Source: Pleurocapsales cyanobacterium LEGE 06147 (GTDB lineage Bacteria > Cyanobacteriota > Cyanobacteriia > Cyanobacteriales > Xenococcaceae). Taken from it: a stretch of DNA of 64,000 nt. The position numbers and the translations under genes are program-made. The notes below the pieces were generated by a model. That model did no database searches. It was not told the origin of the DNA and saw only the letters and a list, made by a program, of their open reading frames with translations. The stretch's first letter is position 1; every line of letters starts with the position of its first letter. The stretch spans positions 1 through 64,000 of the forward strand of contig JADEWQ010000005.1 in the NCBI GenBank assembly GCA_015207585.1. Reading direction: 5' to 3'. Positions 20,894 through 27,083 of this stretch are shown in pieces.

Positions 20894-23800
20894 TTATTTG
20901 CTGTTTGTTGGTATTAAGGACAAAATTTCTCGCTCATACTGAGCAAAAATACTCTGCCAGTCATATTCTTGTTCGACTAGCTTGCGACCATTAACGCGCA
21001 ATCTGTTTCTTAAGCCAGCACTAGAACTAAGTTGTAATATTGCTTCGGCAAACTCCTCCGGTTCGTCGCGAATTAAAATATTTTCTCCGTCCTTTACCTC
21101 TAAACCTTCACAACCAAGACTAGTAGAAATGACTGGTAAACCCATAGCCATAGAATGAAGAATTTTGATACGAGTACCGCTACCCAAACGGATAGGGACT
21201 ACAGTCATGCTGCAATCTCGAGCTACATCGCTCATGTTTTCTGGGTTGGCTACTATCTCTATGTGGGAATCACGTTCAGACAGTGCCTGCACTTGAGGAG
21301 AAGGATCGCGTCCGGCAATGCAAAACGGTAGGGTTTCGTCTTCTTGCCTAATTCGGGGTAAGATTTCTTCTACAAAATACAAAACGGCATCGATATTCGG
21401 GTAATACGCCATCGTTCCCATATACAGCATTTTTCGGTTATTAGTACTGTCTAAAGGAACGATGGTGCGAGTATCAATTCCATTTTTGACGATAATAGTT
21501 CTGCATCCCGGACAACGACGCTCTAATTCTTCTTTGTCGTCCTGACTAACTACTGTTCTGAGTGTAAACTTCGGCCATGTTTGATTTTCATAATTTTCTA
21601 GTAGTCTTGACTCTCTAGCAGAATCTAAAAATACTTTTACTGCATCTACATTTTCTGCTGTTGCTGCCAAGTCAGACTTGTCAACGTTAGCACATTGCTG
21701 AAGAATTCTCGACTCAATATTATGTTCATTTAAAATTGTGGTGTGGTTTTGAAATAGAGAGATATAGGGAGTAGAAAAAATAAAGTCAAACAGCACTGCA
21801 TCAAAAGGAATCTGAGCTAATTGCTGCAGCACTTTCCACATATTCCACGTTCCCCAATGATAAATTTGATTCTGTCGATCTACTCTACGGGGTGAAAGAG
21901 GAACGCCCAACTTTATCATGATGGCAAAATCGCAATAATCTTGCAGAGATTCTTCGATCGCATAATCTGCATCATCAAAAATAAAGGAAACTACTGTTAG
22001 GTGATGGCGATTTCCCAAATATTTAATTTGCTCGAACATGCGGATTGCTCCTCCGGTGTTGGGAGGATAGGGAGGATAGGGAGTAACGAGTAAAATTCTT
22101 AGAGCATCATCGTTCTTGGCAGGCTCGCGAGTGCAAGATACTCCGCCGTAAGACGAGGAGAGATGCTTGCACTTCGTAAGAATCTGCTGACAATAGTCGA
22201 CTACGCGCTGCCAACGACTTTGCAGTTGCAAAATGCGGTCTCGGTTGTGATAAAATCCTTCAAAATCGGGATTTAGTTGAATCGCTCGATTATATGCTTC
22301 TAGGGCTTCGCTCAGATCCCATCTGCCCGTGAGAGCATCTCCATATCCGTTATAGTACCAACAGTTTTCTGGTTCTAGCTCGATCGCTTTTCGATAACAA
22401 ACTAAAGCTCGGTCGAGATTAGCCTGATTGGTCAGAGCATTACCTAGTTGAAAATAAGCTTCTGCGCAGTGGGGGTGAAATTCGAGAGCCGTTTGCAACC
22501 AGACAATTGCCTGCTCGAGTTGTTTCTGATAAATGCAGTTTTTGCCTCGCTCTAGATAAGCTTCGGCTTTTTCTGGTCGGGGAGCTATTTGATCTAGCTG
22601 ACCGAGCAGCAAGAGTTTTTGCGCTGCGTCTCCTGTTTGATGGCTTAACTGCTCCAGTTTGGAGACGATTTCCGTGTTATGAGGTTGATACTGTAAGGCT
22701 AATTGATAGTAGACCAGTGCCTGCTGGAGCTGATTTTGTCTGACTAGGGTGTTGGCTAACTGAAAATAAAGCTTGCTGTTATTTGGCTGTAGTTCCAGAG
22801 CTTTGTGGTAAATTTCGAGATCGTCTGGATTTTGTTTGATGACTTCTTGATAATAAGTTAGGGCGTGATGAGAATCTAATTGAGAACGTCGCCCCAAAGC
22901 ATCGGCTAACTTAGCATGGATTAAAGGTAAATCTGGTTGAAGTTGAACTGCGCGGCGATAGCTAGCGATCGCCTCATCCCAAATTCCTTGTTTAGTTAGG
23001 ATGTCCCCTAAATAATAATAAGCCCAAGCAAAATTGGGGTCTAGTTGGGTAGCTTGACGGAAAGATTCAATCGCTTCGGTCGGTCGCTCTTGTTTGAGAA
23101 GAACTCTGCCCAGATTGTAGTGTGCCCAGGGATAATCGGGTTGGAGCCTAATAGTTCGTTGATAGACGATAATTGCCTCTGCCCATTTTTGCTGCTCGAA
23201 CAGAGCATCTCCTAATTGATGCTGGAGTTGAAAATCAGTTTGGTTGATTTGCCAAAAGTCGGGTTCGATTTCTGTAATTTTTTGATAGCAAGTAAATGTT
23301 TCCTCCCATCGATCCAGTTTACTGAGAGCTACCCCTAAGTTATAGTAAGACCAGCTAAAATGAGGTTCGATCGCAATCGCCTGACGATAAGCTGCTATTG
23401 CTTCTTGCCAGCGTTGCTGTTGGAGCAATGCATCTCCCAAATGGTGATAGGCTTGCCAGCAATCTGGTTGTAGTTGAGTGGTAGTTTGATAGCAGGCGAT
23501 CGCCTCTTGCCAATTCCGTTGTTTTGTCCGGGCTTGACCCAAATGGAAGTGTAGCTGTCCATCTTCGGGTAGTTGTTCTACAGCTTGTCGATACAGATTG
23601 AGCGCTTCCTGCTCCTCTAACAATTCTCCCAAGCGAAGATAACCTAATCTAAAATGAGGATCGAGTTCGATGGAAAGTTGATAACAAAAAGCAGCTTCGT
23701 CTCTGTTTCCTGCTTCTAGGAGAGCATTACCCAACTCGACACATTCGGAAGCATTTGCCTGCTCGGGTTCCAGCCTCAGTGCTCGATAGCGATATTCGCA

Positions 23801-26671
23801 AGCCGACTGTTGTTCTCCCCGAACTTCCATTAGCTTGGCTAAAGTCAGATAACCAGAAGTTAAACGAGGATTGTTAGCAATTACCATTTGGTAACGAGAA
23901 ATCAGTTCTTCTACTACAGTTTCCCTCAGCCCTCGAGCTAAGATTTTTTCAGTTAATAAAATATGGCTCAAACTAGCATAGATATCTAGATTATGTGGTT
24001 GAATTGCCAGTGCTTTGAGATAATTATCTATTTCCGTTGGCTCTTGGGCGATCGCCTGTAGATAAAAATAAAAAGCTTTTGCTTCATCTGCTTTGATTCT
24101 TTGATGAATTGCCCGCTCAATTTTCTGCTCTATCTGGGGTAAATCCGGCTGAAGCTGAACTGCGCGACGATAGCTGGCGATCGCCTCATCCCACTGTTCT
24201 AAGAAGACTAATACTTCGCCTAAATTATAATAAGACCAAGGAAAATCGGGATTGAGTTCGATAGCTCGACGAAAGGAGCGAGCAGCTTGCTCCCACTGTT
24301 GTAAGTGCAAGAAGGCATCTCCCAAGTTATTGTGAGACCAAGAAAAATCATCCTTGAGTTTAATAGCTTGCTGATAAGCTTGAATAGCCTCTTGCCATCT
24401 TTGCTGTTTACTAAAAGCATCTCCAAGATGATGAGCAATTCCCCAAGAGTTAGGTTGAAGTTCTTTGCTCCGTCGATAACAATCAATAGCTTCATCCCAT
24501 TGTTCCAGCTTAACTAAAGCCAAACCGAGATGATAGAAACATTGGGCGTTTTGCGGATTGTGTTTAATAGCTTGCCGATAGCAAGTAATTGCTTCTTGCT
24601 GCTGTCCCTTGCTCTGCCAAATTTCCCCCAACCGCAGATATGCTTCTGCCAGGGAAGGCTTAAACTGAATCGCACGACGATAACAGGCTGCTGCTTGCTC
24701 TAATTTACCTTGCTGCCAAAGGTTATTACCTAACTGTAAATGTTCTTCTGCTTTGACACTGTTTGGTTCTAGACTAAATGCCCGATACCAGTGTTGAGCC
24801 GCTAATGCTTTCTGCCCCACCTTTTCTAAAACTCGGGCAAGATTGCGATAAACTCCTGTAAACTGAGGATTTAACTCGATCGCCTTCCGATAACAAGCGA
24901 TCGCTTCTTTCCACTGTTGCTGACGAGCGTAGAGACTGCCTAAATTAGCTTGAATTTCTGCTGAATCTGGATACTGCTCGGCTTTTTGACGGTATTGCGC
25001 GATCTCGCTTTGCGAGTGCTGCCGCACCGCTCTTTCTATTTTTACCTGTTTAGACTTGCCCGTCTCGTCGGCTACCTGAATTACTTTAGATGTCGTAGCA
25101 GTTGGAAATGAAGATGCTTCTATGGCAGAATCTGCTGTTAAAAGCCGCTGTTCCTTGCTGTGGCTAACTAATCGAGGCATAGTCATCAAAAGACCAGACG
25201 GCAAATCTTTAGGTTGTGGTTGTGGAGAAGGATTGAGCCGATGCCGCTCTTGACGAGCGTTAAGATCGATTTCGATTAACTGGCGGTAGTAGGTTGCTGC
25301 TGCTTGCCATTGACCTAATTTTTCTAGAGTCTCTGCTAAGTTTTGATAACCGTCGTGTAAGTTAGGATCGATTTTAATAGCGTATCGATAATGAAGAACT
25401 GCTTTTTCTAGTTGACCTTGTTGCTTTAATTCATTGGCTAGTTGAAAGTGTTCTTCTGCCGTTCCCTTCTCTGGCTCCAAACTCAAAACTCGCTCTTGAC
25501 ACTCCCAAGCTTTCAGAGATTCCCCCAACTCCCTCCAAACTCTTGCTAAATGGCGGTAAGCTCCAGTAAATTCCGGATTAATAGCGATCGCTTTCTGGTA
25601 ATATTCGATCGCTTGCTGCCACTTCTGTTGCCGAGCATAAATGCTGCCCATGTTAGCGTATACTTCAGTCATATCGGGCTGAATGGCTATTGCTTCGGCA
25701 TAGCAACCCATAGCTTCTGCACTTTTACCGATTCCGAGTAAGGCGTTGCCCCAAATTCTGTATGCTTCTGCCAATTTCGGTGCCAGTTGGAGTGCTTTTT
25801 GACAGGCAGCGATCGCTTGCGACCATTGTTGTTCGTCACAATAACTCAAAGCTTGTCGAATATAAATTTGAGCTGCTTCTGTTGAGGAGGAAAAAGAGTT
25901 CATGGTATTTTCCGAATAGCTTTTAGTGCGTCCATCACTAACGCACTCATGTCCTTGACTGGGCGTACAAGCTAAGGGGACTGAGCTTTCAGGGACTCGA
26001 ACTAAATTCTGAGGGCGTAAGTCGAAGGTTTCCTCCGACTGTAAGACCGCCCGAAGTGCAATTCCAGACTCCTGCTCGTCTACAAGCGACGAGGGCAGTT
26101 CCTTACTGGAATAACTAAATTTTTCAGTATGCGTCACTTCCACCAAAGCCGACGAGGCGGATCGATTTATGCCAACTGTGTCAGTTTCTTTAAACCCATC
26201 AGAGTCATTATGACTGTCTAACTCTTGTTGTTCTTTTGTCGACAATTTAAAGGAAACAGTGGAATTAGTAGAAGCATAGACTGAATTTAAAACGTAACTG
26301 TTATTTAGCTCCGGTAACTGAAGCTTTGATGAGCATTTTAAATGCTTTTGGGACTCGGAATGATGATAAAAAACTATCGCTTTACGATAGTGAATCATGG
26401 CTTCAACTAGATTGCCCTGTTTTTGCCAAGCTAGTGCTAGCTTTTGATGTGCTTTTGAGGAATTAGGCTCGATTTCCAGTGCCTGACGATAAAAAATAAT
26501 TGCTTCGGCTATTTGTCCTTGTTGACACAGTCGATCTCCCTGTTCAATTGTGGCATCTACTGTTTGTAGCACGATGGGAGAAAAGGAGGTAGCAATAGAC
26601 TCTTTTGGGTTGCAATTTTTCTGTTTTTCTACACTTGATGAGTTGAAAAAGTCTTTCAGGCGATTCCACAT
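20894..26671 (-). CDS. giant tetratricopeptide-repeat protein fused to a GT4 glycosyltransferase
   Basis: About 1925 residues. Order: MWNRLKDFFNSS start, a TPR pair (about 40-90), a low-complexity linker (about 110-260), TPR block (about 265-450), linker (about 470-560), a long array of TPRs to about 1490, a short linker (about 1498-1515), then a C-terminal GT4 domain (ILLVTPYPPYPPNTGGAIR; LYMGTMAYYPNIDAV; CIAGRDPSP; VVPIRLGSGTRIKI; SMAMGLPVISTSLGCEGLE). The ATG at 26671 is preferred over the TTG at 26725. Linkers at residues 187-237, 547-557 and 1498-1513 are encoded by dispersed palindromic elements. TPR arrays bind proteins, as in O-GlcNAc transferases, so it may glycosylate a protein or scaffold the assembly machinery. 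Confidence 0.85.
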   Translation of the reverse strand: MWNRLKDFFNSSSVEKQKNCNPKESIATSFSPIVLQTVDATIEQGDRLCQQGQIAEAIIFYRQALEIEPNSSKAHQKLALAWQKQGNLVEAMIHYRKAIVFYHHSESQKHLKCSSKLQLPELNNSYVLNSVYASTNSTVSFKLSTKEQQELDSHNDSDGFKETDTVGINRSASSALVEVTHTEKFSYSSKELPSSLVDEQESGIALRAVLQSEETFDLRPQNLVRVPESSVPLACTPSQGHECVSDGRTKSYSENTMNSFSSSTEAAQIYIRQALSYCDEQQWSQAIAACQKALQLAPKLAEAYRIWGNALLGIGKSAEAMGCYAEAIAIQPDMTEVYANMGSIYARQQKWQQAIEYYQKAIAINPEFTGAYRHLARVWRELGESLKAWECQERVLSLEPEKGTAEEHFQLANELKQQGQLEKAVLHYRYAIKIDPNLHDGYQNLAETLEKLGQWQAAATYYRQLIEIDLNARQERHRLNPSPQPQPKDLPSGLLMTMPRLVSHSKEQRLLTADSAIEASSFPTATTSKVIQVADETGKSKQVKIERAVRQHSQSEIAQYRQKAEQYPDSAEIQANLGSLYARQQQWKEAIACYRKAIELNPQFTGVYRNLARVLEKVGQKALAAQHWYRAFSLEPNSVKAEEHLQLGNNLWQQGKLEQAAACYRRAIQFKPSLAEAYLRLGEIWQSKGQQQEAITCYRQAIKHNPQNAQCFYHLGLALVKLEQWDEAIDCYRRSKELQPNSWGIAHHLGDAFSKQQRWQEAIQAYQQAIKLKDDFSWSHNNLGDAFLHLQQWEQAARSFRRAIELNPDFPWSYYNLGEVLVFLEQWDEAIASYRRAVQLQPDLPQIEQKIERAIHQRIKADEAKAFYFYLQAIAQEPTEIDNYLKALAIQPHNLDIYASLSHILLTEKILARGLRETVVEELISRYQMVIANNPRLTSGYLTLAKLMEVRGEQQSACEYRYRALRLEPEQANASECVELGNALLEAGNRDEAAFCYQLSIELDPHFRLGYLRLGELLEEQEALNLYRQAVEQLPEDGQLHFHLGQARTKQRNWQEAIACYQTTTQLQPDCWQAYHHLGDALLQQQRWQEAIAAYRQAIAIEPHFSWSYYNLGVALSKLDRWEETFTCYQKITEIEPDFWQINQTDFQLQHQLGDALFEQQKWAEAIIVYQRTIRLQPDYPWAHYNLGRVLLKQERPTEAIESFRQATQLDPNFAWAYYYLGDILTKQGIWDEAIASYRRAVQLQPDLPLIHAKLADALGRRSQLDSHHALTYYQEVIKQNPDDLEIYHKALELQPNNSKLYFQLANTLVRQNQLQQALVYYQLALQYQPHNTEIVSKLEQLSHQTGDAAQKLLLLGQLDQIAPRPEKAEAYLERGKNCIYQKQLEQAIVWLQTALEFHPHCAEAYFQLGNALTNQANLDRALVCYRKAIELEPENCWYYNGYGDALTGRWDLSEALEAYNRAIQLNPDFEGFYHNRDRILQLQSRWQRVVDYCQQILTKCKHLSSSYGGVSCTREPAKNDDALRILLVTPYPPYPPNTGGAIRMFEQIKYLGNRHHLTVVSFIFDDADYAIEESLQDYCDFAIMIKLGVPLSPRRVDRQNQIYHWGTWNMWKVLQQLAQIPFDAVLFDFIFSTPYISLFQNHTTILNEHNIESRILQQCANVDKSDLAATAENVDAVKVFLDSARESRLLENYENQTWPKFTLRTVVSQDDKEELERRCPGCRTIIVKNGIDTRTIVPLDSTNNRKMLYMGTMAYYPNIDAVLYFVEEILPRIRQEDETLPFCIAGRDPSPQVQALSERDSHIEIVANPENMSDVARDCSMTVVPIRLGSGTRIKILHSMAMGLPVISTSLGCEGLEVKDGENILIRDEPEEFAEAILQLSSSAGLRNRLRVNGRKLVEQEYDWQSIFAQYEREILSLIPTNSK
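22131..22178. repeat. palindromic element A, copy 1 (inside TPR-GT coding sequence)
   Basis: GTGCAAG (22131-22137) pairs with CTTGCAC (22166-22172) around an inner CTCC/GGAG stem. The same layout with TACTCCGCCGTAA and TGCTTGCACTTCGT is at 26770-26819. It encodes the linker CKHLSSSYGGVSCTREP exactly between the last TPR and the GT4 domain. Confidence 0.75.
24999..25030. repeat. dispersed element B, copy inside TPR-GT coding sequence
   Basis: GCGATCTCGC, two T, then TGCGAGTGCTGCCGCACCGC. The same two blocks flank three bases at 49568-49600. It encodes the segment RAVRQHSQSEIA in the linker before the long TPR array. Confidence 0.75.
25961..26052. repeat. two palindromic C-type elements in the first linker of the TPR-GT gene
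   Basis: 25961-25973 GGGCGTACAAGCT is an exact match to the GT2-gene element (7150-7162, other strand). 26011-26052 holds AGTCGAAGG, TTT, CCTCCGACT (one mismatch) with GGGCG at one end and CGCCC at the other. Both are translated in the low-complexity linker. Confidence 0.6.
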
Positions 26672-26769
26672 AGCAAAGCTGAGAAAAGGGGGAGAGCGGG
26701 TAGATACAGCTTGGAACACACTCAATGCTATTGCTGAAAAAATTAGATGACAACGGGATTTTTACCCAA

Positions 26770-26819
26770 GTGCAAGGTACTCCGCCGTAAAACGACGGAG
26801 TCTGCTTGCACTTCGTCAG
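26770..26819. repeat. palindromic element A, copy 2 (intergenic)
   Basis: Outer stem GTGCAAG (26770-26776) with CTTGCAC (26805-26811), inner stem ACTCCG with CGGAGT. The inner stem is better preserved than in the copy at 22131-22178. Confidence 0.75.
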
Positions 26820-27058: not shown

Positions 27059-27083
27059 CGGACGTTCCATGGAACGTCCGTAC
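27059..27083. repeat. palindrome family D, copy 2 (perfect)
   Basis: GGACGTTCCATGGAACGTCC at 27060-27079 is a perfect palindrome, extended by one C/G pair on each side and followed by GTAC. Compare 16219 and 58798. Confidence 0.8.

Follow-up and report, generated by a model that had tools for sequence, protein, structure and literature searches.

The palindrome inside the gene for a TPR-repeat and GT4-type glycosyltransferase protein very probably belongs to a family of short mobile hairpins, found here only in one cyanobacterial family, that insert next to TNAC, are tolerated in frame and, in this gene, arrived after the domain fusion. The relevant features of the window, i.e., the whole 64-kb stretch of DNA analyzed, are as follows:

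20894 to 26725, minus strand: TPR-repeat and GT4-type glycosyltransferase gene, 1943 aa when read from the TTG at 26725
22131 to 22175, minus strand: copy of the nested palindromic element (45 bp) within the gene, GAAGTGCAAGCATCTCTCCTCGTCTTACGGCGGAGTATCTTGCAC on the coding strand (covariance model, 60 bits, E=2.5e-9)
22176 to 22180, minus strand: CTTAC directly 5' of the in-gene copy, fitting the core TNAC of the target motif
26770 to 26814, minus strand: second copy (73.9 bits), oriented like the first one with respect to the gene and lying upstream of the gene, in the divergent intergenic region
26815 to 26819, minus strand: CTGAC directly 5' of the extragenic copy, fitting the core TNAC of the target motif

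The gene product consists of many TPR repeats (assigned by Pfam) followed by a GT4-type glycosyltransferase, and an ATG near 26671 is a likelier start than the TTG at 26725. The initial annotation described a nested palindrome in the gene and a second one outside it; both are present and share 37 of 45 positions. When the in-gene copy was compared with the window by blastn, the copy at 26770 was recovered with E=1.1e-10, the next best match having E=2.4. Folded as single-stranded DNA, each copy beats 200 of 200 shuffles (z=-3.3 for the in-gene copy and z=-6.5 for the extragenic one). The inner stem of the in-gene copy is partly lost, and several bases of the left inner arm of this copy are off the consensus with the length unchanged; a frame shift rescued by paired indels was considered here and is indistinguishable from plain substitutions.

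The in-gene copy adds 15 codons in frame, translated as T-KCKHLSSSYGGVSC-T. The frame is open throughout the 48 bp originally assigned to the element, but the unit itself spans 45 bp (22131-22175), and the target site ends with the remaining 3 bp (22176-22178), which read TAC on the gene strand. Similarly, the element does lie in the interdomain linker but not exactly between the domains, as had been proposed: about 22 residues separate the element from the end of the last Pfam TPR match, after which a helix follows, and about 11 residues lie between the element and the start of the first GT4 strand. In the AlphaFold2 prediction with the window segment and ten homologues, residues 80-99, which cover most of the insert, have a pLDDT below 50 and no secondary structure, forming a coil between that helix and the first GT4 strand.

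The two copies are also direct repeats (within 22131-26814) around most of the TPR part, and recombination between them would delete the TPR region. The intergenic region of the extragenic copy contains in addition a perfect 20-bp palindrome, GGACGTTCCATGGAACGTCC (27060-27079).

The TPR-GT4 joint in relatives

When the last TPRs and the GT4 domain were used as a query against 60 genomes, 11 loci in 10 other genomes were found to share the TPR-GT4 joint, one of them with internal stops (G024) and another cut by a contig end (G025). These provide the element-free homologues that the initial annotation had proposed to look for: wherever the joint could be aligned, the insert is missing and the joint is shorter by about 14-18 residues, and no relative keeps an insert at this position. 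One of them, G052, belongs to another family of the order and carries the TPR-GT4 fusion without the element. The two closest homologues (about 70% identity) have DYCEQLKQNECHDKLRILL or alike where the window has DYCQQILTKCKHLSSSYGGVSCTREPAKNDDALRILL. The linker is so variable among relatives that they do not reveal the exact empty site in this gene. It varies in both length and sequence, and does not show the conservation in protein but not in DNA that had been named as evidence against a role of the palindrome at the joint.

The suggestion that the element fused two genes is refuted by these data, since element-free relatives carry both domains in one open frame. Nor is there a remnant of a former stop or start at the joint; once the flanks are joined, they read as an ordinary open linker, QQILTREPAKNDDALR. 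Judged from the compared sequences, the element entered the TPR-GT4 gene after the domain fusion, and we consider the order of the two events settled.

Unit, target site and distribution of the family

With a length of 45 bp, or 15 codons, the mobile unit reads about GAAGTSSAAGCAGGCTCCGYCGTYTYACGGCGGAGTAYCTTSSAC and contains two stems, the outer one of 8 bp and the inner one of 9 bp. Only one of its six frames contains a stop codon, the other five being open. Across 49 distinct copies, 92.5% of the stem cells are paired, and the outer-arm variants GTCCAAG, GTCGAAG, GTGCAAG, GTCAGAG, GTCAACG, and GTGGAAG are each matched by their partner, i.e., by compensatory changes. The covariation score was 0.285, compared with 0.04-0.11 for slid partners and with 0 of 500 shuffles reaching it, although such scores are favored by the relatedness of the copies, which the slide control retains, and by the model-fitted alignment.

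Some copies are longer (78-102 bp), with extra modules between the same ends. Those of about 99 bp contain, between the inner arms, a second palindromic module, GGGGCTGTGT...CTTGTAAGCCCC, and look, by their sequence, like one mobile palindrome nested in another:

L064:1975-2073: long copy (about 99 bp)
L072:2056-2154: long copy (about 99 bp)
L074:1967-2065: long copy (about 99 bp)
L095:2037-2135: long copy (about 99 bp)
L047:1501-1599: long copy (about 99 bp)

A module like GGGGCTGTGT...CTTGTAAGCCCC also adjoins tnpA of IS605-like elements (L174, L172), and it seems to lengthen the C-terminus of tnpB in L174. At other loci (L005, L007, L011, and L014, around 1450-1600), copies are clustered with other palindromes (GCTCAAACCCATTGAAATGGGTT..., GTCAGTTTTAACTGAC, and GTGGCGTGCCGTC...) into composite repeats with swapped arms.

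The copies in the genome were counted by pattern and model searches. In the 6.2-Mb genome, the inner-core pattern gave 83 matches (40 and 43), compared with 6 (3 and 3) for the reversed control, and a covariance model built from nine copies found 18 distinct places at E<0.001 plus a weaker tail. The family was present in 23 of 26 sampled other genomes of the same family, whose named members are Xenococcaceae/Hydrococcus, and was found in none of 33 same-order genomes of other families and none of 144 other genomes of the class. An exact stretch of the element occurs in the named records of Hydrococcus rivularis NIES-593 and Hydrococcus sp. Prado102 and in several Xenococcaceae MAGs. It was also seen in a MAG labelled Planctomycetota (L124:1639-1659), possibly through binning contamination or chance. 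The element loci matched no Rfam family, and the element had no match in the plasmid collection.

The element sits directly 3' of TNAC, mostly TTGAC. In a set of 56 copies, for which AC had been a selection criterion, the bases before GAAGT are TTNAC, with T two bases before AC in 53 copies, the other T in 41, and G at N in 37; in the window background, T precedes AC by two bases in 28% of the cases (p about 3e-26 for 53/56). The same columns in 65 model matches, mostly from relatives, show T in 49, A in 63, and C in 53. The right flank is not conserved, and the motif is one-sided. The target is not duplicated, because the element-encoded right end (SAC) differs from the left NAC in many copies. 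In a BY-kinase-like gene of the same genome, the insertion point reads NTNAC in 12 of 12 uninserted homologues, with the full TTNAC in 4; these bases are constrained by the protein (Leu/Ile/Val-Thr), and thus they show that the target bases lie outside the element and add nothing to the motif.

A MITE with terminal inverted repeats, mobilized by a DDE transposase with target duplication, would have short inverted ends such as those found here and could explain the 78-102 bp copies with extra modules between the same ends, but the missing target duplication and the one-sided motif make this origin improbable, and we rejected membership among the classical MITEs on the lack of a target-site duplication. 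A single-strand transposase (HUH/Y1, IS200/IS605-type) acting in trans on the hairpin may well be what moves it. No transposase gene, Y1 or RAYT, adjoins any of the copies (the genome has 14 Y1 genes, in whose flanks the model detected no element), and no autonomous element with matching ends was seen. At L063:2068-2116, an element-like sequence (...YQVSDLTKSKQA...) apparently interrupts a tnpB-like gene close to the zinc finger.

In-frame copies in unrelated genes

The TPR-GT4 gene is not the only one with an in-frame copy. Another is a leucyl-tRNA synthetase (LeuRS) gene of a relative, apparently single-copy, whose 91%-identical neighbor lacks exactly 45 bp. In the genome studied here (gene names without a Pfam scan being read from the sequence), in-frame copies occur in the BY-kinase-like gene and in an FAD-oxidoreductase-like gene, each compared with about a dozen relatives that lack the element, at a PAS-CRP joint whose homologues are too divergent for a clean comparison, and in two PKS-type genes and one small ORF. 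The Pfam-supported cases in relatives comprise, besides LeuRS, a TPR-sulfotransferase joint, a CheA-like kinase, an MHYT kinase, a nuclease, a nitroreductase, and a cytochrome b561. Overall, 17 of 65 copies fall within ORFs of 180 codons or more; in this count, one copy is read on both strands, and ORFs unconfirmed as genes are included.

Given the length of 15 codons and the five open frames out of six, most genic insertions only add 15 residues. The element would insert directly 3' of TNAC, mostly TTGAC, leaving the target undoubled; insertions falling in loops or interdomain linkers would survive. In this gene, the insertion took place in the linker of a TPR-GT4 protein whose domains were already fused. 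The in-gene copy is most likely a tolerated passenger, and the added peptide probably has no function of its own in this protein. The other option offered in the initial annotation, i.e., insertion in a tolerant linker, is thus the one favored by the relatives, the structure prediction, the target-site signature, and the many parallel in-frame insertions.

It could be argued that the hairpin has been kept in the gene because it has a function, with the hairpin in the mRNA or the 15 added residues tuning translation or the TPR-GT4 spacing, as the in-gene hairpin still folds better than its shuffles and the stems covary across the family. However, this covariation belongs to a mobile family of mostly intergenic copies, the in-gene inner stem is partly lost, all relatives do without an insert at this position, and the other in-frame copies lie in unrelated genes and in different frames, so that we regard such a function as very unlikely. 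That the palindrome fused separate TPR and GT4 genes through an insertion spanning or adjoining a stop/start junction is hardly credible: its position in an interdomain linker and the similar copies at other joints (PAS-CRP, TPR-sulfotransferase) would suit it, but element-free relatives, one of a different family, share the fusion, the joint holds an ordinary linker without stop or start remnants, and insertions also fall within single domains (BY-kinase, FAD oxidoreductase, LeuRS).

Returning to the tolerated passenger, a broader and rather doubtful extension is that the 45-bp length, the five open frames, and the short T-rich target make the element near-harmless in genes, so that it steadily writes 15-residue inserts into Xenococcaceae proteins, essential ones included, some of which would become functional interdomain linkers. 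The clean pairs with and without the insert (LeuRS, 45 bp; BY-kinase) make the neutrality of the insertions and the mobilizing enzyme directly testable.

Comparison with known systems

In its mode of insertion, the element resembles the IS200/IS605 family (ISDra2, IS608), with insertion 3' of a short fixed target, here mostly TTGAC, and no target duplication; ISDra2 inserts 3' of TTGAT (PMC2806898). The exact 45-bp gain in LeuRS fits this mode as well, though its site, ACAGAC, departs from the motif. Unlike those insertion sequences, the present element is only 45 bp and non-coding.

The GTAG/CGTC REPs are dispersed hairpins, some of them intragenic, and the GTAG types are tied to Y1-type transposases (PMC3733652, PMC3116915). 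They form a single short stem (8-9 bp with a loop of 4-5 nt in CGTC REPs) that carries an unpaired tag at one end. We rejected membership in this group, since the element starts with GAAGT, has two stacked stems (8 and 9 bp), and has no GTAG tag; its GACG/CGTC-like string has the opposite polarity to that of CGTC REPs, and the NAC part belongs to the target, so that NACG spans the junction. A GTAG REP/REPIN system with a RAYT flanked by repeats was also rejected, as the element flanks none of the Y1 genes.

Very small mobile repeats are known from cyanobacterial genomes as small dispersed repeats (Elhai et al., 2008, as cited in PMC3116915). Our literature search on palindromes of Xenococcaceae, Stanieria, and Pleurocapsa found no description of this family, and the element is apparently a new, undescribed family of a known kind, RPEs and small dispersed repeats being compared by description only. 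A close parallel in behavior is provided by RPE-1, RPE-4, and RPE-6 of Rickettsia, short palindromic repeats found both in intergenic regions and in frame in unrelated genes, where they add a peptide to apparently working proteins (PMC3733652, PMC10969869). The present element is likewise palindromic, multicopy, and in frame in several unrelated genes, but the RPEs described in PMC10969869 are about 150 bp and have a Rickettsia host, whereas the present unit is 45 bp and cyanobacterial, with an insertion motif of the TTNAC type and covarying stems. Intragenic palindromes that add peptides are known as Rickettsia RPEs and as GTAG/CGTC REPs in several species (PMC3733652, PMC10969869), and the present family is a cyanobacterial case in which mobile palindromes of very small size can extend proteins that apparently work by a peptide segment.
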